IMG/VR virus record: IMGVR_UViG_3300006805_000117
Location: 1-29,084 of that record
Source of the DNA: a virus
Direction: 5' to 3' (one strand)
DNA: 29,084 nt
Below, one piece after another: positions 9,404-23,721 of the stretch (position 1 is its first letter; the number at the start of each line of letters is the position of its first letter). The notes under the pieces are model-generated. The model did not search any database and had not been told where the DNA came from. It worked only from the letters and a program-made list of their open reading frames with translations. The position numbers were made by a program, and so were the translations under genes.

Positions 9404-9543
9404 CAAAGCAAGGTAACGGGTGCGCCTCCGAGCGAGGCGCCGCCGCTCTCGGGGTGTCGGTTGAGACCTACGATCGTCTCATCGCCGATGCGGTTGACGC
9501 CGCCCTCCCGAGGCTGATCGAGGCCCTCAAGGGGAAGGTGTGA
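9400..9543 (+). CDS. small hypothetical protein, 47 aa
   Basis: ATG 9400 overlaps the terL stop in an ATGA junction, and the stop at 9541-9543 overlaps the next gene's GTG. The product, with segments RGAAALGVSVETYDRLI and LPRLIEALKG, looks like a short helix-turn-helix or helical pair. No known family. The perfect tiling between neighbours supports it as a real gene. Confidence 0.55.
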   Translation: MTKQGNGCASERGAAALGVSVETYDRLIADAVDAALPRLIEALKGKV

Positions 9544-9809
9544 AGCTCACGCCAGCCCAAGCCCGAGAGCGGCTCGAGGAGGCGAAGGCCGCCTACTCCG
9601 ACGCCGTGAACGAGGCCGCCCTCGCTCTGGCGATCCACGCCGCCGCCCTGAGGACCCTCCGCCAAAGCTCGGCCCGGAGCGCCTCGGCCAAAGAGAGCCA
9701 AGAGAAAGTGATCGTGGATCGGCTCATGGCGGCGGCGGAGCGCTTCGAGGAGGCTCGAGGCGCCTTCGCTACGGCCGAGCTTGCGATCCAAGGAGGTAGA
9801 CCGGAATGA
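9540..9809 (+). CDS. small coiled-coil protein, 89 aa
   Basis: It starts at GTG 9540 in a GTGTGA junction with the previous gene. The product is almost entirely alpha-helical, rich in Ala, Glu and Arg (QARERLEEAKAAYSDAVNEA onward), with heptad-like spacing that suggests a coiled coil. The function is unknown. It sits between terL and the morphogenesis gene, where phages often carry small accessory genes. It ends in ATGA at 9806. Confidence 0.55.
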   Translation: MKLTPAQARERLEEAKAAYSDAVNEAALALAIHAAALRTLRQSSARSASAKESQEKVIVDRLMAAAERFEEARGAFATAELAIQGGRPE

Positions 9810-10033
9810 AGCCCGCGAACGAAGTAACCCCCGCCGATGTGCTCGCCGTACTGTCGACGGGGCCGGCGTCATCCTACGAGATCGCCAAGGCCCTGTGCGT
9901 CTCCTCCGAGTGGGTGAGCGATGCGCTCGGCAAGCTCAAAAACAGATCGAAGGTGCGGCGGACCGACGAGGATGGCCCGGCCAACCCCGGGGGCCGGTTC
10001 CGAGCGAAAAGGTGGGCCCTATGCGGTGGGTGA
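9806..10033 (+). CDS. small winged-helix DNA-binding protein, 75 aa
   Basis: The segment TPADVLAVLSTGPASSYEIA followed by LCVSSEWVSDALGKLKN and then a basic wing (SKVRRTDEDGPANPGGR) has the helix-helix-recognition helix-wing order of MarR/ArsR-like winged helices. It probably binds DNA, and the target is unknown. AAGGAGGT sits about 10 bp before ATG 9806, the strongest ribosome-binding site in this cluster. It could be a late-gene regulator or an accessory packaging protein. Confidence 0.6.
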   Translation: MKPANEVTPADVLAVLSTGPASSYEIAKALCVSSEWVSDALGKLKNRSKVRRTDEDGPANPGGRFRAKRWALCGG

Positions 10034-10098
10034 TGTGGGGTCGGGATCTGGCGCTCCTGGTGATCGCCTCGTGGTCGCTCTGGCGGGTGCTCCAGTGA
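10021..10098 (+). CDS. putative 25-residue single-span membrane peptide
   Basis: A 25-codon ORF bridges the winged-helix gene (13-bp overlap) and the morphogenesis gene (GTGA overlap). It encodes MRWVMWGRD followed by a hydrophobic run LALLVIASWSLW, which is enough for one membrane span. Its tiling with both neighbours mirrors other junctions here, which is the main support. It could equally be a leader for translational coupling. Confidence 0.35.
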   Translation: MRWVMWGRDLALLVIASWSLWRVLQ

Positions 10099-10859
10099 GC
10101 GATCTCCTCAAGCGAGCCTCGCTCACCGGGACCGCCGAATTCGCCGAGCGTCGGGCCCGAGGCCTGGCCCGGCTCGTTAAGCCATGGCTCGATCGGGTGG
10201 TGCGCTCGGAGCTTCGACTCGCCAAGGCCGACCACCAGGAGGAGCTACGCCGCCTCCTTCTTCGCTTCGGGGTCACCGTGATCGACGAGTCGGGCCAGCG
10301 GGTAGGGGGCTCCGAGCTGCAGCGGGGGCGCCTTTACCAGGACCTGATTCGGGGGCGAGAGATCACCATCTCTTGGCTCGACGAGTGGGCCCAGTCGGTC
10401 GAAAACTCGGCGGCGGAGACGCTCGCCGACGTGCGGTCCGAGCTTCAACGGATCACCCGGGAGGCGCTCCTCGAGGCCGAGATGCGGTCCGAGTCGAAGC
10501 TCACGGCGGTCGAGACGGCCCGGGTCATCCGCCAGGCGGCCGGGAAACACGGGAGCTTCTCCTTCGAGCGAGCCCTCCGCATCGCCCGGACCGAGACCTC
10601 GATCGCCGCCAACACGGGCCAGGTGATCGCGTATGACGAGCTGGGGATCACTCAAATCGAGTGGCTCGCCTTCAAGTCGCCGATCTGGCCGAGGCGCCAC
10701 GATCGGATGGCGGGAAAGAAGGTGGACCTCGGCGAGCTATTCACGCTCCCGAGCGGGGCTCAGTGCCGGCACCCGGGCGACCCGTCCCTCCCTGTGGGCG
10801 AGCTTGTGAATTGCCGATGCTCGACGGCGCCCGTGAGGCGCAAGCGCCCAAAGCGCTGA
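10095..10859 (+). CDS. phage head morphogenesis protein (Mu gpF / SPP1 gp7-like)
   Basis: The 254-aa product ends with the Mu-F domain signature: RIARTETSIAANTGQ, then RRHDRMAGKKVDLGE, then ELVNCRCSTAPV. The RTE, HDxxxG and NCRC elements are the recognisable core. These minor head proteins associate with the portal and are needed for assembly or DNA ejection. The N-terminal 130 residues are helical and charged. It starts at GTG 10095 by GTGA coupling. It lies directly upstream of the portal gene, whereas in many phages it follows the portal. Confidence 0.8.
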   Translation: MSDLLKRASLTGTAEFAERRARGLARLVKPWLDRVVRSELRLAKADHQEELRRLLLRFGVTVIDESGQRVGGSELQRGRLYQDLIRGREITISWLDEWAQSVENSAAETLADVRSELQRITREALLEAEMRSESKLTAVETARVIRQAAGKHGSFSFERALRIARTETSIAANTGQVIAYDELGITQIEWLAFKSPIWPRRHDRMAGKKVDLGELFTLPSGAQCRHPGDPSLPVGELVNCRCSTAPVRRKRPKR

Positions 10860-10881
10860 TCCTTGCCAGAGCCGCCGACGT

Positions 10882-10894
10882 GGGACACGGTGCC
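10882..10894 (+). repeat. start-associated motif, copy 1 (before portal)
   Basis: GGGACACGGTGCC lies 5 bp before the portal ATG. It is an imperfect inverted repeat (GGxAC-N3-GTxCC). The identity with copy 3 extends 23 bp through the start codon (10882-10904 equals 20973-20995). No ordinary Shine-Dalgarno is present; GGTG is the only weak match. Confidence 0.7.
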
Positions 10895-10899
10895 GGCCG

Positions 10900-12585
10900 A
10901 TGGCCAAGCGCACCAAGAGCCGACGAGTCAACAAAAGCCCCCAAGGCGCCCGGGCCCGGCAACGTGCGGCCGACCAATCGCCGCTCACCGCGTACGGCCT
11001 GACGGGCTCGAGGTGGGCCGGTCGGACCCGCCTCGCCGGCGAGTACACCCCCGAGCTTCGGGGCCGCCAGCGCCAGCGCACCTATACCAAGATGCTGGCG
11101 ACCTCGAGCCACCTTGGCCCGTCGGAGCTCCTCTTTAAGGCCCTCGCATCCAAGCCCGACTACCGCAACGCGGCGGCGATCGATGGCGACCCCGAGGCCG
11201 AGGAGCTTGCGATCCGCTTCGACGAGATCCTTGACGATATGGATGTGCCGCTCTCGACGGTGGCGGCCGAGTCGATCACCGGTCACTCGCGGGGCTTCTG
11301 GATCGGTGAGGTGCTCCTCAAGATGCGCCGGGGCCCCGACTCCACCTCCGAGTTGACCCGCTCGAAGTACAACGATGGTCTCTGGGGTGTGCAACGGATC
11401 GAGAGTCGCTCGCAGGATTCGATCGATGAGTGGGATATGGGCCCAAACCAACGGGCGGCGTTCGGCTTCTGGCAGGACGTCCCCGGCATCCCCGGACGCC
11501 CTTACGTGCCGATGTGGAAGTGCCTCCACCTCACCCCATGGAATTTCAACGGGAGCCCCGAAGGCAACGGCGGAGCGCTGGCGCCGGCCTATCGGCCCTG
11601 GTGGATGAGTACTGACCTCGAGGAGATCGAGAAGATCGGCGCCGAGCGTCACGCCGCTGGCCTCCCCGTGGCCTTCGTCCCCCCGGAGCTACTCTCGAGC
11701 CGCAACGTCAACGATGTCGCCACGCTCGACGTGATCCAAGATCTCGTGCGGAAGGTGAGGATGGACGAGACCGCCGGCGTGGTGTTTCCTGGCCCGAAAA
11801 ACAAGAAGGGCGAGGACACCGGATTCGGCTTCCAGCTTATGAGCTCGGCCCGCAACGTTGCCGAGAGCGACGTGATCATCAAGCGAGAGCACACCTTGAT
11901 GCTCACCTGCTACCTCACCACCTTCCTTTCCTTGGGCCAGCAAAACGCCGGCGGGTCCCAATCGCTCTCTTCCGATCTGACCGACCTCGTCTCCCAGGTG
12001 ATCGGCTCGTGCCTCGCCCTCTTTGTTCGGGAGGTTCAGTCGAAGCTCTACCCCATGATCGCTCGGCTCAACGGGTGGAACCTCCAAAAGCTCCCGACGC
12101 TCACGCACACCGATATCGAACGCCAGGACGCCCAGAAGTTTGCGGCGGCCCTCGGTACCCTCGTGACGGCCGGCGTGCTCCCGGCCTCCCCGAGCGTCGC
12201 CACCTTCGCCCTCGGCGAGTTGGGTTGGGACCTCGACCTCGACGCCGACCTCCCGATGATGATGCCGACCACCCCGAGCGTCGGCGCCGATCCGACGGTA
12301 CCGGTCCAGGAAGAGAAGGTGGTCTCGCCCGAGCAACTTCGGAGCATGCTCACCTTGCGGGAGGTCGGCACGCATCTCGGTGTTGGGCGAGGTGCGATCA
12401 TGGCGCTGATGCGGGCCGGGAAGCTCGAGAGCTACCGGGTGGGGCGGAGCTGGCGCTTCGATCCGAAGGACGTTGAGACCTACCGCCAGCAAGCCCGGTT
12501 TTCTGGATCCTTGACGCCGGCGACGGGTGCGGGACACGGTGCCCCCGAAAATGGCTCGGGGGATCAAGGCGCCGGCTCTCCGTAA
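10900..12585 (+). CDS. portal protein with C-terminal excisionase-type HTH domain
   Basis: Residues about 60-470 resemble DUF935/Mu-gp29-like portals: SHLGPSELLFKALASKPDYR, HSRGFWIGEVLLKM, LTPWNFNGSPEG, then AYRPWWMSTDLEEIEKIGAE with ERHAAGLPV. The portal forms the dodecameric DNA channel at one capsid vertex. Residues about 484-533 are a separate domain, LTLREVGTHLGVGRGAIMAL, then KLESYRVGRSWRF and PKDVETYRQQ. This matches the excisionase/MerR-type HTH_17 fold that binds DNA. A flexible Gly/Ser-rich tail ends the protein. Portals do not normally carry this domain. It starts at ATG 10900, preceded by the 13-bp repeated motif instead of a normal Shine-Dalgarno, and overlaps the protease gene by 35 bp. 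Confidence 0.82.
   Translation: MAKRTKSRRVNKSPQGARARQRAADQSPLTAYGLTGSRWAGRTRLAGEYTPELRGRQRQRTYTKMLATSSHLGPSELLFKALASKPDYRNAAAIDGDPEAEELAIRFDEILDDMDVPLSTVAAESITGHSRGFWIGEVLLKMRRGPDSTSELTRSKYNDGLWGVQRIESRSQDSIDEWDMGPNQRAAFGFWQDVPGIPGRPYVPMWKCLHLTPWNFNGSPEGNGGALAPAYRPWWMSTDLEEIEKIGAERHAAGLPVAFVPPELLSSRNVNDVATLDVIQDLVRKVRMDETAGVVFPGPKNKKGEDTGFGFQLMSSARNVAESDVIIKREHTLMLTCYLTTFLSLGQQNAGGSQSLSSDLTDLVSQVIGSCLALFVREVQSKLYPMIARLNGWNLQKLPTLTHTDIERQDAQKFAAALGTLVTAGVLPASPSVATFALGELGWDLDLDADLPMMMPTTPSVGADPTVPVQEEKVVSPEQLRSMLTLREVGTHLGVGRGAIMALMRAGKLESYRVGRSWRFDPKDVETYRQQARFSGSLTPATGAGHGAPENGSGDQGAGSP
12531..12543 (+). repeat. start-associated motif, copy 2 (before protease)
   Basis: GGGACACGGTGCC is repeated exactly, 7 bp before ATG 12551 of the protease gene and inside the last codons of the portal gene. 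The flanking bases differ from copies 1 and 3, so identity is limited to the 13-mer. No Shine-Dalgarno is seen. Confidence 0.7.
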
Positions 12586-13948
12586 GGCCTTCACGGTCTC
12601 CGGACGGATCACGAAGATCGACAAAGCCCAACGGCTGATGCTCGGGTGGGCCTCCACCTCGACGATCAATCACAAGCTCGTCACCGACCACGACAAAGAC
12701 CGAATCACCCCCGCCGAGATGGAAAAGGCGCTTTACGCCGCCGTTGAGCGGGGCGTGGTGCTCGGCGACATGCACGATCGCCTTGGCGTCGGGCACCTCG
12801 TCGAGGCCGTGGCCCTCACCAAGGAGAAGAAGGCCGCCATGGGTCTTGGGGACGATGGTCACCAAGGGATGTGGGTCGGCTTCCGGGTGACGGATGACGC
12901 GATGTGGGCGGCCGTCGAGAAGGGGGAGCGCCCGGAGTTTTCGATCGGCGGCGAGGCCAACCGGACACCGGCGCCCGATGAACCCGGAGCCTTTGACCTG
13001 ACGGACATCGAGATCCACGAGATCTCGGGCGTTGACGCCGGCGCCGGGATTCACGTCCCGGTCGTGATCACCAAGAGACGGGGCCGAGGCTCCGAGGGAG
13101 AAGCGATGAAACTGCACAAGCGATTGGCCAAACTGGCCAAGACCCTGGAGAAGCTCGGCGCCAGCGACGAAGGCCAAGCGATCATCATCAAGTTGAACGA
13201 GTGGGCCGGGACCCTTCGCAAGGAAGTGGGCTCGCTCGCCGAGTTGGCCCAGATCCAAGAGAAGCTCACCCCCGACGAGTGGGCGATGGTGCTCGAGGCG
13301 ATCCAGTCGGGCGTGCCGCTCGCCGGCGCCGCCGAGCCGGTGGAGGCCGCTCTCGACCCCCAGGCCCCGGCCGGTGATCAACCCCCGCCGATGCCCCCCA
13401 AGCGGAAGAAGGCCGCCGAGAGCGACGAGGATCCCGCGGTGGCGGAGATCTCCAAGTCGCTCGAGGCCGTGCGGAAGGAGCTGGCGGCCGAGCGGGCTCG
13501 GAGCGAGCGCTTCGAGAAGGAGCGCCGGATCGAGAAGGCGAAGGCCTTCGTCGAGAAGTCCCTCCCCCACCTCCCCGGCGATCCGGAGCTGCACACCGAG
13601 GCGGTCTCCTTCCTCGAGGATGCGATCAACGCCAACGGCGAGCGCCTCATCCGGGTGCCGGCCGAGCTGGCCAAACACCTGCAAGAGACCCTCGTCAAGG
13701 CGAGCACGGCGGTCGGCGCCGCCGCGATCCTCAAGACCCACGGCGCCAACCCGTTCACCGTCCACCGGGGCGGCGAGAGCGAAGGTGGCGACACCTTCGA
13801 CGGCTTCACGAAGGAGGAGGCCCGGGCCGAGCTCGAGAAGCGCTCGGCGGCCCTCCGCAAGAGCAACCCCAAGCTGACCGCTTCCGCGGCCTGGATCGAG
13901 GCGTGCTCCCAAAACGAGCGCCTCTACGAAATCACCAATAGCCGGTGA
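12551..13948 (+). CDS. XkdF-like prohead protease fused to scaffold domain
   Basis: The N-terminal part of this 465-aa protein (about 14-175) matches the XkdF family of prohead serine proteases: LMLGWASTSTI, then VLGDMHDRLGVGHLVEA, then MWVGFRVTDDAMW, then PEFSIGGE. His75 and Ser131 are the likely catalytic pair. The remainder is scaffold-like: helical, with a charged coiled coil (LEAVRKELAAERARSERFEK) and a C-terminal region rich in Glu and Lys. Proteases of this type clip scaffold and capsid proteins during maturation. ATG 12551 is chosen because the 13-bp motif precedes it; an in-frame GTG at 12527 is less likely. An internal start at 13106 probably yields scaffold alone. Confidence 0.82.
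   Translation: MARGIKAPALRKAFTVSGRITKIDKAQRLMLGWASTSTINHKLVTDHDKDRITPAEMEKALYAAVERGVVLGDMHDRLGVGHLVEAVALTKEKKAAMGLGDDGHQGMWVGFRVTDDAMWAAVEKGERPEFSIGGEANRTPAPDEPGAFDLTDIEIHEISGVDAGAGIHVPVVITKRRGRGSEGEAMKLHKRLAKLAKTLEKLGASDEGQAIIIKLNEWAGTLRKEVGSLAELAQIQEKLTPDEWAMVLEAIQSGVPLAGAAEPVEAALDPQAPAGDQPPPMPPKRKKAAESDEDPAVAEISKSLEAVRKELAAERARSERFEKERRIEKAKAFVEKSLPHLPGDPELHTEAVSFLEDAINANGERLIRVPAELAKHLQETLVKASTAVGAAAILKTHGANPFTVHRGGESEGGDTFDGFTKEEARAELEKRSAALRKSNPKLTASAAWIEACSQNERLYEITNSR
13106..13948 (+). CDS. probable nested scaffold protein (internal in-frame start)
   Basis: ATG 13106 lies in frame within the protease gene and is preceded by GAGGGAG at good spacing, a much better ribosome-binding site than the one for the full-length gene. 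The 280-aa product (MKLHKRLAKLAK onward) would be the scaffold part only: helical segments, a proline-rich hinge (PPPMPPKRKK) and the coiled coil. This matches the lambda C/Nu3 arrangement, where scaffold is translated separately and in excess from the same frame. It is supported by position and ribosome-binding site only. Confidence 0.5.
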   Translation: MKLHKRLAKLAKTLEKLGASDEGQAIIIKLNEWAGTLRKEVGSLAELAQIQEKLTPDEWAMVLEAIQSGVPLAGAAEPVEAALDPQAPAGDQPPPMPPKRKKAAESDEDPAVAEISKSLEAVRKELAAERARSERFEKERRIEKAKAFVEKSLPHLPGDPELHTEAVSFLEDAINANGERLIRVPAELAKHLQETLVKASTAVGAAAILKTHGANPFTVHRGGESEGGDTFDGFTKEEARAELEKRSAALRKSNPKLTASAAWIEACSQNERLYEITNSR

Positions 13949-13974
13949 CCCCGGGCTGAAAGGAACACAAGACC

Positions 13975-14355
13975 ATGAGCGACTACATCTCCCAATGCAT
14001 CATCGTTACCGCCCTGGCGGGTGACGATCTGAGCGGCGATCAGTTTCGGGCCGTCGGCCACTCGGCCGCCGCCGACAACACCTTCATCGGCACCACGGCC
14101 CAGGGTCAACGGGTGGCGGCGATTTGCCTCGACGAGCCCACCGCGGGCCAGCAAGGGCGCTTCTGCATCTTCGGCCCCACCCGAGCCCGCTTCGGGGCCG
14201 CCGTGACCCGCAACGCGGTCCTCACTCCCCAGGCCGACGGTGACCTTGAGACCGCCGCCTCGGGCGACTTCCCGTGCGGCTACGCCCTGGAGTCGGGCGC
14301 CGACGGCGGTCGGTATCTGATCTTCTTCTGCCCTTCGATGGTGCCGCTGGCCTGA
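13975..14355 (+). CDS. head decoration / capsid-stabilising protein
   Basis: The 126-aa product has the short repeated beta pattern of DUF2190-type decoration proteins: DDLSGDQFRAVGHS near the start, LDEPTAGQQGRFCIFGPTRA in the middle, then AVLTPQADGD, and finally CGYALESGADG with a hydrophobic end. Such proteins coat the outside of the capsid. Its position between protease/scaffold and major capsid genes is the usual one. AAAGGA precedes ATG 13975. The family match is by pattern, so another small head protein is possible. Confidence 0.62.
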   Translation: MSDYISQCIIVTALAGDDLSGDQFRAVGHSAAADNTFIGTTAQGQRVAAICLDEPTAGQQGRFCIFGPTRARFGAAVTRNAVLTPQADGDLETAASGDFPCGYALESGADGGRYLIFFCPSMVPLA

Positions 14356-14386
14356 TCGGGCGAGCCGAGCTGAAAGAGAGACGACG

Positions 14387-15421
14387 ATGAAAAAGATGTT
14401 CGCCAAGGCCAAGCCCACCTCCTCGATCCGGAAGGGCGTTCCCACCTTCGAGGAGGCTACGTGGGTCGAAAACCTCACCATTATGAGCGTCGATTACGCT
14501 CAGAAGGCCGAGGACTACTTCCACACCCTGACCCCGAAGCTCCCGGTCAAGACCCCCCAGGGCCGATACAAGGTCTTCTCTCGGGCGGACGCCTTCCGCA
14601 CCGAGGCGGGTCCCCGGCGCCCCGGAGCCGAGGCCCGAACCCGTGCCACCGCGATCGCCGAACAGACCTATGCGACGGTCGGCCAGGCGATCAAGACCCA
14701 GCTCGCCGACGAGGATCGACAGGCCGAATGTTCGATGGTCGACGAGCGCCGGAAGGTCAACGAGGTGACTCGAGACCTCCTCCTTCGTCGCGATCTCGAT
14801 TGGGTCTCGGCCTTCTTCGGGACCTCGATCTGGGCGTCGGACATCTCCTCCGGCTTCACCCAATGGAATGCCGCGAACGCGACGATCATCGCCGACGTGC
14901 GGGAGTGGCGCTCGCTGATCCACTCCTTGTGCGCGGCGGAGGCCAACCGGATGGCGATCCCGTCCGACGTCTTCGACGTGGTGATGGAGGACCCCGAGAT
15001 CATCGAACGGATCCCCAACGTGGTGTCGACCTCGGTGGAAGACAAGGCCGCCATCCGCCGGGCCTCGATCGCCGCCTTGGAAGTGCTCTTCGAGGTGGAG
15101 GAGATCAAGGTGGGCAAGGCGATCCGCAACTCGGCGGCCGACGGCCTCACCGCTTCCCAGGCGTACATCGCGAGTGACGCGATCCTCCTGATGGCGGTGC
15201 CGTCCGAGGGCCCGGCGCTCGACGTGCCGAGCGCCAGCTACTGCGCCTCGTGGTCCCCCTTCGACAACGTGGATGCCACGGTGGCCTCCTCGGGCGGAGC
15301 GGCGATCTCGAGCTGGTATGAGGACAAGACCAAGTCGATGTGGTTCCAAGGGGACATGCACTACGACTTCTTCATCCCCGACACCTCGGCCGGTTTGTTC
15401 GCCTCGAACTTGCTCGCCTGA
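14387..15421 (+). CDS. major capsid protein (HK97-fold, gpE-like)
   Basis: The 344-aa protein is in the canonical place after protease and decoration genes. Features fit gpE-like major capsid proteins: an N-terminal helix, VDERRKVNEVTRDLLLRRD (a long spine-helix-like segment), IPSDVFDVVMEDPEI, ALEVLFEVEEIKVGKA, and the C-terminal beta strands WYEDKTKSMWFQGDMHYDF. It forms the icosahedral shell. It has an AAAGAGAG ribosome-binding site before ATG 14387 and is followed at once by an intrinsic terminator, as expected for a highly expressed gene. The N-terminal processing site cannot be placed from sequence. Confidence 0.85.
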   Translation: MKKMFAKAKPTSSIRKGVPTFEEATWVENLTIMSVDYAQKAEDYFHTLTPKLPVKTPQGRYKVFSRADAFRTEAGPRRPGAEARTRATAIAEQTYATVGQAIKTQLADEDRQAECSMVDERRKVNEVTRDLLLRRDLDWVSAFFGTSIWASDISSGFTQWNAANATIIADVREWRSLIHSLCAAEANRMAIPSDVFDVVMEDPEIIERIPNVVSTSVEDKAAIRRASIAALEVLFEVEEIKVGKAIRNSAADGLTASQAYIASDAILLMAVPSEGPALDVPSASYCASWSPFDNVDATVASSGGAAISSWYEDKTKSMWFQGDMHYDFFIPDTSAGLFASNLLA

Positions 15422-15428
15422 TTCAAGC

Positions 15429-15471
15429 GGGGCCGCCGCCGGCGCTTCGGCTGGTGGCGGCCCCTTCGTTT
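15429..15471 (+). terminator. rho-independent terminator after the major capsid gene
   Basis: A 12-bp GC-rich stem pairs 15429-15440 with 15453-15464 (one G-T wobble). It encloses a GGCGCTTCGGCT loop that can pair further and is followed by TTCGTTTT. It begins 8 bp after the capsid stop. It probably gives partial termination, because the tail genes continue 20 bp downstream without an obvious new promoter. Confidence 0.8.
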
Positions 15472-15483
15472 TCGGAGGGACCG

Positions 15484-16332
15484 ATGCGCGCCAAGATCGT
15501 TCAGCCCCGTTTCGACCACGCCCCCACCGAGGGGATGTATTTCGTGGGGCCCGGCCGCCCGATGATTGTGCGGGATGAGGCCGGCACCGTGCGGGAGTGC
15601 CACCCCGGCGACCCGATCCCCGAGGCCTTCGATTTCAAGCCCAACCGTCGCCGCGTCATGCTGGCGAAACACCGGCTCCGTTTCGTGAGCCGCAACGCCC
15701 TCGCCGATGGGGTGCTCCTCCAGCTCGTCGAGGGCCAGACCCCCGAGGCTCGGGCCGAGATGGTGGCCTCGCTCAAGCTCCCGAAGGACGCCCCCGCCCA
15801 GGCCGTAGCGTCGGCCCTGGCGGCCCAGGGCATGGCGGGGCTCGCCCAAGCTCTTCCGCCCGGCGTGCGGCCCACCCGGGTCCGGCCCAAGCGCCAAGAG
15901 CCCAAGCCGGCCCCGAAGAAGGAGGCCACGCCCTCGGCGACCCTTCTCCCTCGAGCCGACTACCCCAACGCCGAGGCCTACGCTAATGCCCTGGTGGCGG
16001 CCGACGGCCCGAAGGTGGAGGCGGCCCTCGCCGATGCCGGGCTCCTCGGCCACTACGTCAACGCCGCTCGTCTCGCCGAGAAGGACGCCGCTCGACGGGT
16101 GAAGGCGCTGGATCGCGAGAGCTTCGAGACCGAGGCGAAGTATCAGGAGGCCGAGGAGAAGGCCCGCCGGATCGTGCTCCCGCCCACCAAGGCCCTCGAT
16201 CTGATCCTCAAGGCTCGCCGAGCCCGGAAGAAGGACGCCAGCGCCACCGACTCGGGGATGGCGGACCTCGCCCGGTGCGTGCTTCTCGAGCCCGAGGCCT
16301 TCGAGTTTCAGCCGAAGCAACGCAAGGGGTGA
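15484..16332 (+). CDS. hypothetical head/neck-region protein, 282 aa
   Basis: It starts at ATG 15484 with CGGAGGGA upstream. The N-terminal 90 residues are beta-rich (GMYFVGPGRPMIVRDEAGTV, then CHPGDPIPEAF). A Pro/Lys linker follows (RPKRQEPKPAPKKEAT), then a helical, charged C-terminal half (VKALDRESFETEAKYQEAEE). The layout suggests two domains joined by a flexible linker. No family is recognised. Position between capsid and head-tail connector implies a structural or assembly role. Pro-Lys linkers of this sort occur in scaffold and minor head proteins. Confidence 0.6.
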   Translation: MRAKIVQPRFDHAPTEGMYFVGPGRPMIVRDEAGTVRECHPGDPIPEAFDFKPNRRRVMLAKHRLRFVSRNALADGVLLQLVEGQTPEARAEMVASLKLPKDAPAQAVASALAAQGMAGLAQALPPGVRPTRVRPKRQEPKPAPKKEATPSATLLPRADYPNAEAYANALVAADGPKVEAALADAGLLGHYVNAARLAEKDAARRVKALDRESFETEAKYQEAEEKARRIVLPPTKALDLILKARRARKKDASATDSGMADLARCVLLEPEAFEFQPKQRKG

Positions 16333-16335
16333 CCC

Positions 16336-16743
16336 GTGAGCTTCTCCTACGATCCCACGCTAGCGGATGCCGTCTCTCGGATCAGGTTTCGCCTCGGCGA
16401 CACCTCCGAGAGCGACCCGCCCCGCTTGCTCGAGGATGAGGAGATCTCGGCGGTCCTGGTGACCGAGGGGAGCGCCGAGCTTCACGCCGCCGAGAAGCTT
16501 TGCCAGGCGATCCTTTCCAAGATCGCCCGGGACGTGAACACCAGCGGGGCTGGGCTCAACACCACCCGAGAGCAAAAGACCACGCACTACAAGGATGTCC
16601 TTTCGGAGATCCGGGCCGAGCTATCGACGCAAGGACAGCCGATCTTCACCGGCAACTCGAAGGAAAACTTCGACGCCGTGCGTGACGATGACGATACCCG
16701 GTACGTGTTGACCCAGCTTCGGCGGGATCGCGGGTGTTGGTGA
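16336..16743 (+). CDS. head-tail connector (gp6-like adaptor)
   Basis: The 135-aa protein has the opening pattern of gp6-like adaptors: DPTLADAVSRIRFRLGDTSE, followed by LLEDEEISAVL and a helix (AAEKLCQAILSKIARDV). Then comes the region around TREQKTTHYKDVLSEIRAEL. These proteins form a ring under the portal and seal DNA after packaging. Start GTG 16336 lies 4 bp after the upstream stop. The position between the capsid gene and the gp10-like gene is standard for siphoviruses. The assignment is by pattern and order. Confidence 0.68.
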   Translation: MSFSYDPTLADAVSRIRFRLGDTSESDPPRLLEDEEISAVLVTEGSAELHAAEKLCQAILSKIARDVNTSGAGLNTTREQKTTHYKDVLSEIRAELSTQGQPIFTGNSKENFDAVRDDDDTRYVLTQLRRDRGCW

Positions 16744-16746
16744 ACC

Positions 16747-17337
16747 ATGGCCCAAGTGGAGCTCCAGACCGACGGCGCCAAAGTTGAGGCGGCCCTCAAG
16801 GCCGCCGGCGCCGAGGTCGCCGCGGGGTTGGCCGAAGTGGTGCTCGGGGCCGCTCAGGTCTTGGCCGGCGAGATGCGCCGACAAGTGGTGTCGAAGCTCG
16901 CCAAGGATCCCACGGGCCAGCTCGCCCAATCGATGCGGGGCTCCCTCCTCGTGCGGAAGGCGGGCGCCGGCGAGGTGTCGGCGATCGCCGGCTCCGACCT
17001 CCCCTATGCGAAGGTCCAAAACGACGGGGACCCGGAGCACGGGATCCACGGTGAGCATCTCCTCGCGATCCCCAACCGGCTCTTGGTGCCGAGGGGGAAG
17101 AGCCCCCGCGACTTCGCGAAGGGTGAGCTACAGCTCGTTAAGACCAAAGGCGGGAGTCTCCTCCTCCTGAAGAAGGGCGCCAAGAAGGGGTCGGATCTGA
17201 TGTTCGTCCTTCGGCGCTCGGTCAACTTGCCCGGCGTACACTACGCCGAGGCCGCCGCCGCCGAAGGCAAAGAGGAGGTCGACGGCTTCATTGAAGACCG
17301 CTTGAATGACCTCCTCGAGAAGGCGAGGCGCCCGTGA
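16747..17337 (+). CDS. HK97-gp10-like neck/tail-completion protein
   Basis: The 196-aa product starts with a long amphipathic helix (AALKAAGAEVAAGLAEVVLG). It continues with the gp10-like features SMRGSLLVRKAG and IAGSDLPYAKVQNDGDPEHG, a strand-rich basic middle, and VHYAEAAAAEG near the end. Members of this family sit at the head-tail interface and are needed to join heads to tails. It begins 3 bp after the preceding stop and is coupled by GTGA at 17334 to the next gene. It is placed as expected in gene order. Confidence 0.62.
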   Translation: MAQVELQTDGAKVEAALKAAGAEVAAGLAEVVLGAAQVLAGEMRRQVVSKLAKDPTGQLAQSMRGSLLVRKAGAGEVSAIAGSDLPYAKVQNDGDPEHGIHGEHLLAIPNRLLVPRGKSPRDFAKGELQLVKTKGGSLLLLKKGAKKGSDLMFVLRRSVNLPGVHYAEAAAAEGKEEVDGFIEDRLNDLLEKARRP

Positions 17338-18251
17338 GCTTCTCCGAGCAAGCGCCCAATCGGGCCCTGATCATCGATGACATCCGGACCTGGCTCCGAA
17401 TGATCACCGAGGCCAACGGGTTCCCTCTCGACGTGGTCACCGTTGACGATCGACTCCGCCAGGCCGACGAGGTCGCCCTTGCCGAGATGCCCTGGCTCGG
17501 CGTGTTCGCCGCCCCGGGCCAGCAAGCGCCCCGCTACTTCCCCTTCGGCCGCAAGGAAGAGATCTTCGATGTGCTCGTAGTGGGCCACGTGAGAGGCTCG
17601 AGCCAGGCCGAGAAGGAGGAGATCGTTTCGCTCCTCGAGTCGGCGATCGAGACCCAACTCCAGAGGGACCCGACCCGTGACGGCTTCTCGGTCGACACGA
17701 TCGCCGTTTCCGCTCCCGACACCGACGAGGCCCAGCCGGACAAGGGCGGCCGGGTTGACAGAGTGGTTGATCTCCAGATCCGTTACCGGTGTTCCTTCTT
17801 CCCTGGGGACGATGCGAGGCAAAGAGTGGCCCACGGCGAACTTTACTTTTCGGGTGCGCCCGATCCCACCAACATCAACACCGGCGCTTATGTGCCGCTC
17901 GAGGGCGCGACCACGCTCGGATCGGCCGTCTCCTTCGACTCGCCGACGGCGGGGCGCCTCCGACACACCGGCGTCAAGACCCGCCTGATGCGGGTGGAGG
18001 CCTCGGGGGTGATCACCCCGTCGATCGCCGGCGCCGTCACCCTCGCCATCCGCCACAACGGGACTGCCCTTCCGGCCTCGGCCACCCCGGTCACCCCGTC
18101 GGGCGCCGGAGCGCCGGTCCCCTTCGCCGTCGCCGTTTTGGTGGAGCTGGCGGAGAACGATTACGTTGACCTGGCGATGATCGCCGGGTCCGCTGGCACC
18201 GTAACCCTGGCCGCCCTCAACTTGTCGGCCGTCCCTGTTTCCCGCTTCTGA
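17334..18251 (+). CDS. tail terminator-like protein fused to a C-terminal jelly-roll domain
   Basis: Residues 1-165 of this 305-aa protein resemble tail terminator proteins: IIDDIRTWLRMITEANGFPL, EIFDVLVVGHVRGSSQAEKE, RVDRVVDLQIRYRC. Those cap the tail tube and attach it to the head. Residues about 180-305 are a different domain. It begins FSGAPDPTNINTGAYVPLEG, continues AVTLAIRHNGTALPASATPV and VAVLVELAENDYVDLAMIAG, and ends VPVSRF. This is the pattern of C1q/TNF-like jelly-rolls found in phage appendages and decoration proteins. The fusion is unusual. GTG 17334 overlaps the upstream stop. The jelly-roll may decorate the neck. Confidence 0.6.
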   Translation: MSFSEQAPNRALIIDDIRTWLRMITEANGFPLDVVTVDDRLRQADEVALAEMPWLGVFAAPGQQAPRYFPFGRKEEIFDVLVVGHVRGSSQAEKEEIVSLLESAIETQLQRDPTRDGFSVDTIAVSAPDTDEAQPDKGGRVDRVVDLQIRYRCSFFPGDDARQRVAHGELYFSGAPDPTNINTGAYVPLEGATTLGSAVSFDSPTAGRLRHTGVKTRLMRVEASGVITPSIAGAVTLAIRHNGTALPASATPVTPSGAGAPVPFAVAVLVELAENDYVDLAMIAGSAGTVTLAALNLSAVPVSRF

Positions 18252-18261
18252 GGAGGAGCCT

Positions 18262-18633
18262 ATGCCGAAGACCATCCGAACCCGAGAGCGCCTCCGAGCG
18301 GAGGTCGACGCCGTGATCGCCGAGGAGTCGCGCCAGCCGGCGGCCCTCACCGAGGCCGAGCGATTCGTCGCCGAAGCCAAGCCCATCGTCTACGTGGGCC
18401 CCGAGAAGGGGACCCACGCCTTCGGCCGCCGCCTCGTCCCTGGCGAGGTGATCCGTTGTTGGCCCGAGGAGGCCGCCGCCAAGGTGCGGTCGGGCCTCTT
18501 TCGGGATGCCACCGCCGAGGAGGCCGCCGCTCACGAGGCCCGGTGTTGCCCGGCGTGCGGCTCGGGGCACGGCCCTTGCCTTGCGTCGGCTCCTGATCCG
18601 GTGTTCGGTCTCGCGATGAAAGAGGAGGGTTGA
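18262..18633 (+). CDS. hypothetical protein with a cysteine cluster, 123 aa
   Basis: It starts at ATG 18262 after GAGGAGGAG. The N-terminal half is helical and charged (RTRERLRAEVDAVIAEE). The middle contains IVYVGPEKGTHAFGRRLVPG and VIRCWPEEAAAKVRSGLF. The C-terminus has CCPACGSGHGPC, a compact Cys/His group that could hold a metal ion. No family is recognised. It lies between the tail terminator and major tail genes, where small assembly proteins are common. Confidence 0.55.
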   Translation: MPKTIRTRERLRAEVDAVIAEESRQPAALTEAERFVAEAKPIVYVGPEKGTHAFGRRLVPGEVIRCWPEEAAAKVRSGLFRDATAEEAAAHEARCCPACGSGHGPCLASAPDPVFGLAMKEEG

Positions 18634-18636
18634 TCC

Positions 18637-19833
18637 ATGTCCGGATGCCAACTTGGCCACGTGCTCGGCCGCGAACAAGTGATCTTCGTGCGGCCCCAGA
18701 CTGGGGAGGCCTATGTGCTCCCTCAGGCGGGACCGCCGACGGAGACGGACGGCGGAGCGCTTCACGTGATCTCGAGCGACATCAATCGAGCTCGCAAGCA
18801 ACAACCCCGGCGAGACGCTCGCCTCGGCCCATACGACTTCGAGACCTTCCCCGATCGCTTCGAGGGCTCCTGGGCCATTCAGGCCCACGTGATCCCGCCG
18901 GCGGCTCTCACCTCCCGGCCCGACGCCCACCATCTTTTGGTCGGCGCCTTCGGGACCCACACCTTCAACTCGGGCACCTCGATCGCCTACACCTTGAGCA
19001 ACTCGGGGTTGTGTCGGCCGCTCTCGATCCTTCGCCTGGCCAACCGGTCGGCGGCGATCTTCTCCGAGGCGCTTCGGCTCTGTCCGGTGAACCTTTTCCG
19101 GACCTCGTTCAACGGGACCGAGCCCCCCCAGTTTGCCTTCGAGGGTCCGATGGCGGAGTGGGTCGGCACCGGCCCGGCCGAGGTCGACGAAACGGGGACG
19201 ACCCAGACCGAGATCGACATCACCCCGGCGACGATCGACAACCTGATGCGAGGCTCCACCTATGGGAGCCGGATCCAGGTCGGCGTCAACACCAACGGTG
19301 GATCGGGCTACGAGGTGACGAACGTTGATCGTGTCAACGATGACGTCACGGTGAGCCCGGGTGTTACGGTGACCGACGGCGACGCGATCATCCCGTACGC
19401 CCCGACCCCCACGCTCTCGAGCGCCCCCCTGATCGGGCACACCGTCGGCGGGATGACGATCGACGCCGTGGATGTTCCGGTGGTGCAGGGCGAGATCATC
19501 CTCAATCGGAACCTCACCACCCCCCAGCTTTTCGGGACCGACACCTTCGACGATGCGACCCCCGGCTTTGCCGACATCACCGGGAGCTTCACGATCGAGG
19601 CCCGGGCCGATTGGACGCTCGAGATGATCCGGGCGACCTACCGTGAGGAGCGGTCGATCTCGGTGGTGTACGGCACCGGGGCCGGGCGGACCGTGACGCA
19701 CGCCGGCGCCCAATTCATTGCCGACGAGGACAAGATCGACCTCGGCGGCGAGCGGGGCCAATTCGTGATCCCGGGGCGCTTCTTGGCCTCGGCCGAAGGT
19801 GCGCTCGACGCCCTGAGCCTCACGTTCACCTGA
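18637..19833 (+). CDS. major tail tube protein
   Basis: The 398-aa protein is mainly beta-structured. Segments such as PYDFETFPDRFEGSWAIQAH, HHLLVGAFGTHTFNSGTSIA and GEIILNRNLTTPQLFGTD fit siphovirus tail tube proteins, as does its place before the tail assembly chaperone genes. It stacks as hexamers to form the tube. Start ATG 18637 follows a strong ribosome-binding site (AGAGGAGGG). At 398 aa it is longer than many tube proteins, so an extra surface domain is possible, but I cannot assign one. A different frame open over 18630-19328 is a shadow. Confidence 0.75.
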   Translation: MSGCQLGHVLGREQVIFVRPQTGEAYVLPQAGPPTETDGGALHVISSDINRARKQQPRRDARLGPYDFETFPDRFEGSWAIQAHVIPPAALTSRPDAHHLLVGAFGTHTFNSGTSIAYTLSNSGLCRPLSILRLANRSAAIFSEALRLCPVNLFRTSFNGTEPPQFAFEGPMAEWVGTGPAEVDETGTTQTEIDITPATIDNLMRGSTYGSRIQVGVNTNGGSGYEVTNVDRVNDDVTVSPGVTVTDGDAIIPYAPTPTLSSAPLIGHTVGGMTIDAVDVPVVQGEIILNRNLTTPQLFGTDTFDDATPGFADITGSFTIEARADWTLEMIRATYREERSISVVYGTGAGRTVTHAGAQFIADEDKIDLGGERGQFVIPGRFLASAEGALDALSLTFT

Positions 19834-19957
19834 TCCCTTCTTGACGGGGAGAGCTAGTCCCTCCGCCTCGTCAGGGCCCCGCATGGCCAGGGTGTGGGGT
19901 TACGGGGGCATTGACCTAGGGGGCCGCCTGGCCCGGCCTCCGCTAAAGCGAGGGACT
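19834..19957. other. 124-bp non-coding gap upstream of the tail assembly chaperone
   Basis: The frame used downstream stays open through this stretch, with possible starts at TTG 19841 and ATG 19883. The codons there (CTA, AGA, AGT) are rare in the window, and the clear ribosome-binding site GCGAGGG precedes ATG 19958. I see no convincing promoter; TTGACG at 19841 has no partner -10. No terminator was found. Confidence 0.45.
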
Positions 19958-20485
19958 ATGGACATCACCGAGATCGGCGCCTTCTCCGAAGATGGGGTGC
20001 GCTACTACCCAAACCACGATGACGCTCACGCGAAGATCGCGCGACTTCGCCACCTTCAAGGCCTACCGCAACTCGACGCCGACGAGATCGCCGAGGTGGA
20101 GACGATCGAGGGTTGGCTTGCTGAAGAAGCCCTTTACCTCGAGCTCGAGCCGCTCTCCTCGGAGGACTACCAGAAGATGCGCGCCAAGAGCCCGCACCTC
20201 CGAAAAGGTCTCCAGCTCCAGCAAGGCAAAAACGGGCCGGTGATCGATGGCTCCTCCTTCGAGACCCGTCACGATGCGTTCGTCGAGGATCTCCTCCGAT
20301 CCAGGGTGAAGCGGGTGGGAAACTGTCGCGCCAAAACGGGGCCCCAGGAGTGGCGAGCGATCACCACGATCGATGAACTTCTGGCCACCCTCAAGCGATC
20401 GGACCGGGCGACTCGAGCGCTCCTCGAGGATGTGCACGAGGCCTTGATCTCGATCTCTCACCTCGAGGCCGGCCTAAAAAACTGA
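19958..20485 (+). CDS. tail assembly chaperone, short form (gpG-like)
   Basis: The 175-aa product is encoded between the major tail protein and the tape measure, the fixed place for tail assembly chaperones. It is helical and charged, with segments DEIAEVETIEGWLAEEALYL and TIDELLATLKRSDRATRALL. These chaperones bind the tape measure and help tail tube polymerisation. The gene ends CTA AAA AAC TGA, a -1 frameshift heptamer touching the stop codon, so some ribosomes should continue into the longer form. Start ATG 19958 is preferred over an in-frame ATG at 19883 on codon usage and ribosome-binding site. Confidence 0.75.
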   Translation: MDITEIGAFSEDGVRYYPNHDDAHAKIARLRHLQGLPQLDADEIAEVETIEGWLAEEALYLELEPLSSEDYQKMRAKSPHLRKGLQLQQGKNGPVIDGSSFETRHDAFVEDLLRSRVKRVGNCRAKTGPQEWRAITTIDELLATLKRSDRATRALLEDVHEALISISHLEAGLKN

Positions 20486-20970
20486 TTCGCCTCGCCGCCG
20501 CCTACTCGGCCTCGGGGCACCCGTCCACTCGGTGGCGGTGCTCGCAATGCGATCCGGGCTACCAACCGGATCCGCTCGAGCCGCCAGAGGAGGAGGCGAG
20601 GCGGGTCCGGAATTGCGCCGGCGACCCAAAGGCGGGGCTCCTCGAGACGCTCCCGTTTGCCCCCGGCGTGAGGATGTGCCCCCGAGCGCTGATCCCCGGA
20701 TCGGCGTGGGAAGCGATCGAGGTGTGGAGCCGCTGGCGCCTCCTTCGGGTGCTCCCGTTCCCCGGCCCGCTCGAGGCCCAACCGGTTTGGGTGCTCGAGG
20801 CGATCGAGGCCGCCGAGCTGGGGACCCGTGGCCCGAGCGACCACGTGGCCCCAGAGCCGCTCGAGGTCGAGGAGGAGGCCGAGGCCCAGGGCGATGAGCC
20901 GAAGGCGCTGGCGGGCTTGAGCCCCGCCCTGCAAGCCTACTTCGCCCGGAAGGTGGACAACGCCACTTAG
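19958..20970 (+). CDS. tail assembly chaperone, -1 frameshift product (gpGT-like)
   Basis: After a -1 slip at 20476-20482, translation continues in frame from CTG 20482 to the stop at 20968-20970, giving about 337 aa. The extension begins LIRLAAAYSAS and includes a four-cysteine stretch (CSQC, then NCAGD, then MCPRAL). It also has WEAIEVWSRWRLLRVLPFPG and WVLEAIEAAELG, a typical T-type extension. The extension frame has no ATG, GTG or TTG from 20482 until GTG 20668. So its first 60 or so codons can only be translated by frameshifting. As in lambda and many siphoviruses, the G:GT ratio would be set by the slip efficiency. The tape measure follows directly. Confidence 0.8.
20476..20482 (+). promoter_or_regulatory. 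-1 programmed ribosomal frameshift site A AAA AAC
   Basis: The heptamer AAAAAAC in the phase (CT)A AAA AAC is a textbook -1 slippery site. It is directly followed by the zero-frame stop TGA (20483-20485). A very GC-rich segment lies downstream, which may form a stimulating structure. Confidence 0.85.
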
Positions 20971-20972
20971 CC

Positions 20973-20985
20973 GGGACACGGTGCC
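20973..20985 (+). repeat. start-associated motif, copy 3 (before tape measure)
   Basis: GGGACACGGTGCC lies 5 bp before the tape measure ATG, in the 20-bp gap after the chaperone extension. It is part of a 23-bp identity (20973-20995) with the sequence around the portal start. No standard Shine-Dalgarno is present. Confidence 0.7.
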
Positions 20986-20990
20986 GGCCG

Positions 20991-22718
20991 ATGGCGGACA
21001 TCGTTTTCGGCATCCTGATCAAGGGTAAGGACCTCGCCTCGAAGGCCTTCGACGCAACGGCCACCAGCGCTCGGCGACTGGGGACGTCGATTCGGGACGC
21101 CGGATCCAAGGCGGCGAAGGCGGCGAAGGAGATCGCCGGCTCGGCCGTCAACATCAACGCGATGATGGAGATCGGGAAGAAGGTCTTTGGGGCCCTCTCC
21201 CGTGGCTTCCAAGCCGTCACCTCCGCCGCCCTCGAGCAAAGGGCCGCCACCGATCAGCAAGCCAAAGACTGGGCCGAGCTCGGCCGCACGGTGGAGCGGA
21301 TCGCCGGCCTGATCGGCGACATCCTGATCCCCATCGTGCTCGGGGTGGCCGACGCCTTCGCCTCGTCGACCAAAGGCGCCGAGGCCTTCCTTGGGCAAAA
21401 CCGGGCGCTGATCGGATCGAAGATCGTCGAGTACCTCGCCAGCATGGCGAGCACCCTCGTTCGGGGTGTGGCGACCGGGTTGGTGCTCGTCTCGAGGGCG
21501 TGGACCGGTCTCCGAGAGATCGTGGGCCTGGTGAAGTTTGCGGTGGAGGCCGCCTTTGCCGGCATGATCAAGGGCGCCGAGGTTGCGATCGGCGCCTTCG
21601 AGAGCCTCGCCTCGGCCGTTGGCGCTGATGGGCTTGCGGCATCCCTGGCCTCGGCCAAGGAGGAGGCCGCCCTTATGTCGGCGACCTTCGGGGAGTCGGC
21701 GGATCAGCATCTCGCCGAGGTCGCCCGAATGGTGGCCGAGCAAGAAGCGCTCGATGCCGCGATCGCCGACGTCGCCGCGAAGGTTCAGGACGGGATCGGG
21801 CGGGCCGCCGTCGCCGCCTTCGCTCGGCTGAATCAGGAGATCCGCAAGGTCGCTCCCGGCGCTCGAGAGGCGGCGGAGGCCGCAAACAAGCTGGCGATCG
21901 CCTCCCTCAAGGCCCAGGAGATGGCGGCCCAGGGCCACGCGATGCGGGTGGCGCTGGCGGCCGACCTCTACCAGAGCAACCTTGAGCGGATCGCCGAGGC
22001 GGAGGAGCGAGCCGACGCCAAACAAAAGGAGCGCTTCGAGAAGCTCAAGGCCCGGGCTCAGGAGATGGTCTCCGAGGTCACCTCCTTTGCCTCGGGCCTC
22101 GTGGGCTCGGCCCGCTCGGCCTTCGCCGGCATCGGTGAGGAGATGAACGGCCAGATCAAGACCTGGCGGGATGCCTTGGCCTCCTTCCTCGACTCGATCG
22201 CCAGCATGATCATCGAGAAGCTCGTTCAGTCGGGCATCGCCAAGATCGCCGGCCTGATCGGTAGCGCCCTGACGGGGGGTGGGCTTGGGATCTTCGGAGC
22301 GATCGGCGGGGCCATCTCGGGCCTCTTTGGGGCCGGGGCCGTGGGCGTGAACCGGGGCGGGACGATCCGGGGCTACAACTCCGGAGGGATCCACGGGTAC
22401 GCCGGCGCCGGCATCGTCTCCGGTCCGGCGGGCTCCCCCAACCGTGATACCACCCTGGCGGCCCTCACCGTCGGCGAAGGGGTGCTCTCCCGCGAGACTA
22501 CCAAGCGGGTGGTCGCCGACCTGTCGGGCCGTGGGGGCTCTGGCCAAGCGCCGGCGTCGATCGCCGAGTCGCCTCGGGCTCGCCAGGTGATCCGGGAGGT
22601 GAAGGAGACCCGGGCTCTCTACGCCCTCACCAGCCGGGCCCACCTCGACACCTTCCAGCGAAACACGGCCTTGCCTTCCGCCGCTCGCCTCGAGCGCTAC
22701 AGGGCCCAGGGAGCTTGA
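20991..22718 (+). CDS. tail tape measure protein
   Basis: The 575-aa protein is Ala-rich and mostly helical, with a long hydrophobic stretch (GLIGDILIPIVLGVADAFAS) and further membrane-prone segments (IAKIAGLIGSALTGGGLGIF). Its C-terminus reads YNSGGIHGYAGAGIVSGPAG and then TTLAALTVGEGVLSRET, an ending I know from many tape measures. It sets tail length and helps DNA pass the host membrane. By the usual rule of about 0.15 nm per residue the tail would be roughly 85 nm, a short siphovirus tail. ATG 20991 is preceded only by the 13-bp repeated motif. Confidence 0.88.
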   Translation: MADIVFGILIKGKDLASKAFDATATSARRLGTSIRDAGSKAAKAAKEIAGSAVNINAMMEIGKKVFGALSRGFQAVTSAALEQRAATDQQAKDWAELGRTVERIAGLIGDILIPIVLGVADAFASSTKGAEAFLGQNRALIGSKIVEYLASMASTLVRGVATGLVLVSRAWTGLREIVGLVKFAVEAAFAGMIKGAEVAIGAFESLASAVGADGLAASLASAKEEAALMSATFGESADQHLAEVARMVAEQEALDAAIADVAAKVQDGIGRAAVAAFARLNQEIRKVAPGAREAAEAANKLAIASLKAQEMAAQGHAMRVALAADLYQSNLERIAEAEERADAKQKERFEKLKARAQEMVSEVTSFASGLVGSARSAFAGIGEEMNGQIKTWRDALASFLDSIASMIIEKLVQSGIAKIAGLIGSALTGGGLGIFGAIGGAISGLFGAGAVGVNRGGTIRGYNSGGIHGYAGAGIVSGPAGSPNRDTTLAALTVGEGVLSRETTKRVVADLSGRGGSGQAPASIAESPRARQVIREVKETRALYALTSRAHLDTFQRNTALPSAARLERYRAQGA

Positions 22719-22722
22719 TCCA

Positions 22723-23721
22723 ATGGTCTACGCGATCACCCCGATCGACGCCTCGGTGAGGGCCCAAGCCCAAGCCGGGAAGCCCTTCTTTTTGGTGGAT
22801 CAGTGCATCCGTCACCGGGCCAACGTGCCGAGCTGGCGCACCTCCGGATCGTGGGCCTCGGGCTCGGACATCACAGACCCCGATCGCCCGGTACGCCGAG
22901 CCTACGACGGCCAACTCGGGGCCGGGACGTCGCCCAACGATACGATCGTCGGCACCTCCACCCCCGTTTACCTCCTCTTTGACCTGACCGCCGCCGCCGC
23001 CCGTGGCTTCGACACGGCGATGATCGCCGTCGATCTCGGGGGCGTTGGTGACGGCGCCGAGTGTGCGATCCAGATCGCCAATGCCGACAACTTCGCCAGC
23101 GCCCGAACCATCGGAGAGGCCCAATTTTGGGAAGATGGGGGCGGGCGCCAGAAGATCATCGTTTGGGATCTCCGAGACCCGATCGGCGCAATCGACGGGA
23201 TCGACGTCGCTAACGCCCAGTATGTTCGGCTCCGATTCCAGCTCGGCCTGGGGCCGACGTGGGTCGCTCCTCCCGTGGTCTACGAAGTGGCCCTCGGGCG
23301 CCGCTTCCAGCTCTCCCACTTCCCTCGCTACCCTCACGACCCCGAGCAACGGGCCTCGGTCTTCTCCGACTACGTTGCCGATTCAGGGTGGACGCAACGG
23401 GTGATCCGCTCCGTCGGTATGCACCCCGTGAGCCTCTCGCTCCAGCCCCAGGCCGAGGGCCTCAACGGGATCGACGATGTGGACGCGATCCGCCGGTGGT
23501 TCGCGGCGACGAACTACGGCGCCCGAAACTTCCTCTATTGCGACGACCCCGGAGCCGTGGCCTCGGGTGTGGTCACCCCCGCCTCGACGCCGCCCCGAGG
23601 CCTGTGGTGTCTCCCCCCGCCGTCGATCGCCGTGCCGAACATCGGCCCCTTCGTCTACGACTTCTCGACCGAGTTTCGGGAGCTCCCCCCGTACCGGGCG
23701 ATCAATGAGGTTGCGGCGTGA
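22723..23721 (+). CDS. distal tail (Dit-like) protein
   Basis: The 332-aa protein follows the tape measure, where the distal tail protein is expected. The N-terminal half is beta-rich. RFQLSHFPRYPHDPEQRASV and the C-terminal half around VSLSLQPQAEGLNGIDDVDA, with IRRWFAATNYGARNFLYCDD, resemble minor tail proteins that open the tip complex. It probably forms the hub ring that joins tube to fibres. GGGAG precedes ATG 22723, and it is coupled by GTGA at 23718 to the next gene. The assignment is mainly by gene order. Confidence 0.6.
   Translation: MVYAITPIDASVRAQAQAGKPFFLVDQCIRHRANVPSWRTSGSWASGSDITDPDRPVRRAYDGQLGAGTSPNDTIVGTSTPVYLLFDLTAAAARGFDTAMIAVDLGGVGDGAECAIQIANADNFASARTIGEAQFWEDGGGRQKIIVWDLRDPIGAIDGIDVANAQYVRLRFQLGLGPTWVAPPVVYEVALGRRFQLSHFPRYPHDPEQRASVFSDYVADSGWTQRVIRSVGMHPVSLSLQPQAEGLNGIDDVDAIRRWFAATNYGARNFLYCDDPGAVASGVVTPASTPPRGLWCLPPPSIAVPNIGPFVYDFSTEFRELPPYRAINEVAA

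Follow-up and report, generated by a model that had tools for sequence, protein, structure and literature searches.

The virus record IMGVR_UViG_3300006805_000117, an IMG/VR contig of 29,084 bases that is probably a genome fragment and that was analysed over its full length (the window, in what follows), carries in front of three of its structural genes an exact repeat of 13 bp, GGGACACGGTGCC, which is the subject of this work. The genes are those of the portal, of a protease and of the tape measure, names which had been proposed in an earlier note on this DNA and which hold with the family assignments given in Table 1. The genome has a GC content of 66% and a strong codon bias. The portal start is backed by a first methionine that is invariant in an alignment of seven portals, and the protease start by several relatives, the starts of which align near residues 7-12; for the tape measure, tblastn gave no match in phage records. 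Searching the whole record confirms that the 13-mer lies exactly at 10882, 12531 and 20973, on the plus strand, and nowhere else: there is no copy on the minus strand and none with one mismatch, and at two or three mismatches the count hardly differs from chance (30 matches in all, where 21.5 would be expected). The spacers that separate it from the ATG codons at 10900, 12551 and 20991 are of 5, 7 and 5 nt. Between copies 1 and 3 the identity extends to 23 bp, as had also been noticed, in a stretch that takes in the spacer and ATGGC, hence the start codon (GGGACACGGTGCCGGCCGATGGC), and that has no further match within three mismatches; copies 2 and 3 have 14 bp in common.

Table 1. Features of the three start regions, with positions numbered along the window
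Feature	Coordinates	Strand	Remarks
Portal gene, Mu-type (Portal_Mu, phrog_113)	10900..12585	+	added C-terminal HTH_17 domain
XkdF-type protease gene (Peptidase_S78_2/XkdF)	12551..13948	+	overlaps portal gene by 35 nt
Tape-measure gene	20991..22718	+	phrog_339, E 1.6e-6
13-mer, copy 1	10882..10894	+	5 nt before portal ATG; same as copy 3 through 10904
13-mer, copy 2	12531..12543	+	7 nt before protease ATG; within final portal codons
13-mer, copy 3	20973..20985	+	5 nt before tape-measure ATG; 2 nt past tail-chaperone (GT) stop codon
Block A, copy 1, GCAAGC	10840..10845	+	42 bp ahead of 13-mer
Block A, copy 2, GCAAGC	12489..12494	+	42 bp ahead of 13-mer
Block A, copy 3, GCAAGC	20931..20936	+	42 bp ahead of 13-mer
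Block B, copy 1, TTGCCA (5/6 to TTGACA)	10863..10868	+	17 nt before CACGGT
Block B, copy 2, TTGACG (5/6 to TTGACA)	12511..12516	+	18 nt before CACGGT
Block B, copy 3, TGGACA (5/6 to TTGACA)	20954..20959	+	17 nt before CACGGT

Three exact copies are, by themselves, little proof of a function, because a 13-mer repeated three times is not unusual in this GC-rich genome, where ten different ones are present at least three times on the two strands together. It is the position of the copies at gene starts that stands out, not the triple occurrence. Indeed, when the 32 upstream windows were placed at random, none of 20,000 placements gave a 13-mer common to three of them (P <5e-5), and 2.4% gave one common to two. 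The match is all-or-none, with 13 of 13 bases at the three starts and at most 8 of 13 at every other gene start, and among 140 contigs scanned likewise this is the only one in which a 12-mer is common to three start regions. This de novo test of exact repeats is a conservative one, because the known start-associated sequences (SAS) of phage TM4, used as a positive control, were picked up weakly, through a 12-mer common to two genes. Pure chance repetition, which the frequency of repeated 13-mers in this genome would favour, is rejected by both the random placements and the contig scan, and its probability may be held to be negligible.

The repeat, at its fixed place before ATG, is preceded by two further blocks that are common to all three copies and stand at fixed spacing. 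They were brought out by gap-free alignment of the DNA upstream of the copies, and are new relative to the earlier note. Sixteen columns are identical in the 70 bp upstream, where 5.8 would be expected, a value with P 0.0004 for random triples and reached by one of 3276 triples of other gene starts. An exact hexamer found at one offset in all three sequences, as is GCAAGC (block A), has a null frequency of 7.5e-5, and TTGACA-like hexamers (block B) at a common offset were found in none of 20,000 random triples. Searched without the 13-mer and on both strands, GCAAGC followed by TTGACA at 15-18 nt comes up at these three places only, 0.06 being expected per strand, and there the blocks sit in the ends of coding sequences, or in gaps, of three upstream genes unrelated to one another. 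The whole layout is thus GCAAGC, 16 or 17 nt, a TTGACA-like hexamer, 17 or 18 nt, CACGGT in the 13-mer, 8 or 10 nt, then ATG, which gives the composite pattern GCAAGC-N16/17-TTGNCN-N17/18-CACGGTGCC. We see in it a real start-associated regulatory element, present in three copies, with upstream blocks recognised here for the first time.

The same alignment bears on the suggestion that the repeat is a recombination boundary, or more generally a relic of recent copying or recombination that plays no regulatory role, whether as a duplicated start region or as a short homologous boundary used in the exchange of the portal or tape-measure gene. The identity of copies 1 and 3 through the start codon is what such an origin would leave behind, and a start region copied along with a small tandem gene is at hand in another contig, L118, described below. 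Copy 2, however, has the 13-mer without the flanks of the other copies, and the similarity is confined to conserved islands that keep their spacing within the coding ends of three upstream genes unrelated to one another; base composition shows no break at the sites, with no shift in GC content, overall or at third codon positions (GC3). That part of the earlier proposal is therefore retained as an unlikely one.

How might such an element operate? Tentatively, and going by the order and spacing of its parts, we would take the three sites as copies of a single cis-regulatory element of about 55-60 bp, larger than the 13-mer alone, that would serve the phage as late promoter or activator site, yield near-leaderless mRNAs and coordinate expression of the genes for portal, protease and tape measure. 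A role at the DNA level, as promoter or activator site, appears most likely, with a mechanism that lies between transcription, slightly favoured, and translation. The TTGACA-like block would be the -35 hexamer, the 13-mer would cover the -10 hexamer and the start region, with CACGGT (which has the important A2 and T6) as -10 at 8-10 nt from ATG, and GCAAGC, about 57 bp upstream of ATG, would be the activator site. Transcripts would then begin at ATG or within a few nt of it, and a promoter of this kind would account at once for the fixed distance from 13-mer to ATG and for that from block to 13-mer. It would also make sense of the missing Shine-Dalgarno sequences at the three genes, as leaderless mRNAs would need none. 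The -35 part of this description conforms to sigma-70 usage, where 16-18 nt separate the two hexamers: the agreement with TTGACA is of five positions in six at each site, and the distances to CACGGT are of 17, 18 and 17 nt. Because CACGGT is a poor -10 and the 13-mer is hard to melt, the promoter would depend on an activator or a sigma factor specific to the phage. A strong intrinsic-terminator-like stem at 15429-15464 (15 pairs, 13 of them G-C, then TTCGTTTTCG), 8 nt past the stop codon of the capsid gene, agrees with a division of the structural region into several transcription units, and would make further transcription starts useful downstream. If the element is indeed a promoter for leaderless mRNAs, it would illustrate a way for a phage to adjust the output of assembly proteins of low copy number within a long late operon.

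Several observations weigh against this account. CACGGT matches TATAAT at two positions in six, far from an easily melted, TATAAT-like -10; the 13-mer melts less easily than the genome does on average (-1.69 against -1.60 kcal/mol per step); and a scan of positions 9000-23000 with the sigma-70 consensus gives nothing at the three sites. The upstream blocks were noticed after the fact, the pattern rests on three copies only, and two of the GCAAGC blocks have the same codon context (CAA GCC). Finally, the element is in no relative examined, so that it displays no conservation over time.

The earlier note had left the choice between control of translation and control of transcription. The former, the chief competing account and slightly less probable than the promoter, would have the 13-mer work as a translational start element in the manner of the SAS of cluster K mycobacteriophages, read in the mRNA by a phage or host factor, so as to substitute for, or to gate, the Shine-Dalgarno sequences of three assembly proteins of low copy number. 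Its constant distance of 5-7 nt from ATG is the position of a ribosome-binding site, it stands in for a Shine-Dalgarno sequence at exactly these three genes, the spacer and ATGGC are also kept between copies 1 and 3, the layout equals that of published SAS, and the start regions of the three genes are among the more structured ones (ranks 1, 3 and 7 of 32). The remark that none of the three has a normal Shine-Dalgarno sequence is right as far as contiguous pairing is concerned: the 13-mer pairs with 16S RNA through GGUG only (4 nt, -4.1 kcal/mol), which puts these among the weakest gene starts tested, and a few other genes, including that of the major capsid protein, also have a weak Shine-Dalgarno sequence. 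An alternative one, in which GGGA and GGUG would pair with the 16S tail around a bulge (-7.7 kcal/mol for the 13-mer alone), was rejected as not beyond chance, since equally good pairing was reached by 22% of shuffled and 19% of random 13-mers. Rejected too was an MS2-like RNA hairpin with AUG in its loop, which is found in all three minimum-energy folds and does not clearly exceed what GC content gives. GC content indeed largely explains the folding of the start regions (z -1.0 to -1.5), synonymous-codon choice does not favour folding at copies 1 and 3, and the three copies display neither covariation of RNA pairs nor a conserved RNA fold. Control of translation is thus possible without support from 16S pairing or folding beyond chance; it leaves unexplained the blocks 19 and 42 bp upstream, which fit transcription at least as well. 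A sequence-specific RNA-binding factor acting on the 13-mer is possible. On the side of the other genes, the starts of the decoration and capsid genes (13975-14480) are the least structured in the window, with -3 to -4 kcal/mol, and their Shine-Dalgarno sequences are weak too.

The 13-mer might also be a stoperator-like operator, where binding of a phage regulator would repress or stop transcription at the three gene starts, without being a promoter itself. All copies have one orientation, their conservation is exact and all-or-none, and a near-dyad core, CAC-G-GTG, can be read in the sequence, extended in copy 2 to GGGaCAC-G-GTGcCCC. This dyad is imperfect, of a kind expected by chance, and an operator needs no fixed distance to ATG. 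The stoperators of cluster A phages are 13-bp asymmetric repressor sites in many copies genome-wide, to be compared with three copies here. We hold an operator of this sort to be rather improbable.

A specific candidate regulator lies close at hand. The portal ends with an HTH_17 (excisionase-like) DNA-binding domain (12346-12495, residues 483-532, E 2e-9), which was not found in ten related portals scanned, and in the set examined both this fusion and the element are private to the present phage. It is conceivable, although most improbable, that the domain recognises the element of about 60 bp, and that the portal, or a fragment translated from the gene's end, thereby controls its own gene along with those for the protease and the tape measure, in which case the stoichiometry of assembly would exert feedback on the expression of late genes.

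The distribution of the element was followed in several collections. For portal, capsid and terminase, identity with phage records does not exceed about 35%, and no close relative came out when IMG/VR and species genomes were scanned with single proteins. In 97 distant relatives, with about 30% protein identity, the 13-mer stands before no convincing start; motif-like sequences with <=2 mismatches are commoner there (47) than matches to a reversed control (14), none of them before a convincing start. The earlier note had named absence from orthologous positions in relatives as part of a case against a function; this absence is found for very distant relatives only, and so does not decide the matter. 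The 13-mer followed by 3-9 nt and ATG is present in 49 IMG/VR contigs, in a single copy each and with at most one near copy per contig, and the idea of a widespread element was rejected. The longer composite has matches in five contigs, again in single copy, a 22-mer was in no species genome searched, and phage records gave nothing credible for the element. It is therefore private to this phage within the collections searched. A second case of repeated starts seemed to exist in the distantly related contig L118 (181-400); it really consists of two small tandem open reading frames (210 and 401) whose start regions agree fully over about 28 bp, apparently the outcome of a gene duplication.

Two features of the neighbouring genes may be added. 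Apart from the overlap of the portal and protease genes (12551-12585), copy 2, at 12531-12543, doubles as portal coding sequence, where it supplies G-H-G-A codons in a tail rich in Gly, Ala and Pro. Ahead of the tape-measure gene, a canonical -1 slippery sequence, A AAA AAC, is placed at 20476-20482, directly before the TGA of the gene 19958-20485, and the -1 frame that follows is open up to the TAG at 20968-20970, so that this is the frameshift site of the G/GT tail chaperones.

It remains to place the element among known systems. The late promoters of phages P2 and 186 depend on an activator that binds about 55 bp upstream of the transcript start, and one element serves several late operons. 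As far as layout goes, the element proposed here resembles them in the distance of its putative activator site and in its sharing between several units; P2 mRNAs have leaders, and the P2 activator site is TGT-N12-ACA.

Repeats associated with gene starts have been on record for phages since 2011. In cluster K mycobacteriophages the SAS is a 13-bp sequence, GGGATAGGAGCCC, found 3-8 nt before the starts of non-structural genes, sometimes with an extended SAS (ESAS) upstream (PMC3203893). These ESAS are imperfect 17-bp inverted repeats, and for the upstream block a SigA-like promoter with 17-18 bp spacing was proposed (PMC11373665). The SAS has 11-19 copies per genome in K1-K3, in the non-structural arm, with an AGGAG Shine-Dalgarno core. 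Membership is limited to <=2 mismatches to the consensus (PMC12699233). The likeness that the earlier note had seen with this family stands for the layout: 13 bp with GGGA and CC as the two ends, mostly ATG starts (all ATG here, and at distances within 3-8 nt), one orientation, near-invariant copies and, often, a second conserved block upstream. It does not extend to the sequence, which is identical at 8 of 13 positions, hence with five mismatches, an agreement equalled with SAS consensuses by about 1% of the 13-mers of the window. Nor does it extend to the AGGAG core, replaced here by GGUG as the longest contiguous pairing with 16S RNA, or to gene class, as the three copies of this 29-kb fragment all belong to structural genes. 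With the TTGACA-like block as -35, the -10 would fall inside the 13-mer, not upstream, and no inverted repeat is common to the three copies, the upstream blocks being GCAAGC and the TTGACA-like hexamer; the column-identity test overlooks most ESAS, whose spacers vary. To judge from its sequence, the 13-mer is SAS-like in layout only, and is not a member of the cluster K family. The cluster K consensus itself is at chance level in the window (19 against 17). One such sequence, GCGACAGGAGCCC (7927-7939), agrees with it at 11 of 13 positions, and is separated by 6 nt from the GTG that starts the large terminase gene; matches of this type are at chance level in the window, and its AGGAG is an ordinary Shine-Dalgarno sequence.

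Two other systems invite comparison. In cluster EF phages of Microbacterium the SAS has the consensus GGGAAAGGACCCC, ten copies and an AGGA Shine-Dalgarno core, and SAS sequences are unrelated between phage groups (PMC7302621); our 13-mer has 8 of 13 bases in common with that consensus, and resembles it in length, position, GGGA...CC ends and the link to a weakly conserved upstream block. The 26-bp repeat of Citrobacter phage Mordin, SAS-like and placed before eight starts of hypothetical genes in the left arm (PMC4611695), is similarly located before translation starts, and differs in sequence, in length and in the GGAG core that it contains. The element described here appears to be an independent case, with a different sequence, structural genes as its setting and upstream blocks that keep their distances. 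It also lacks the Shine-Dalgarno core by which the cluster K and EF cases are confounded. Because of this, and because of its structural genes and its fixed-spacing blocks, it separates the idea of a better ribosome-binding site from that of a sequence-specific regulator or promoter.

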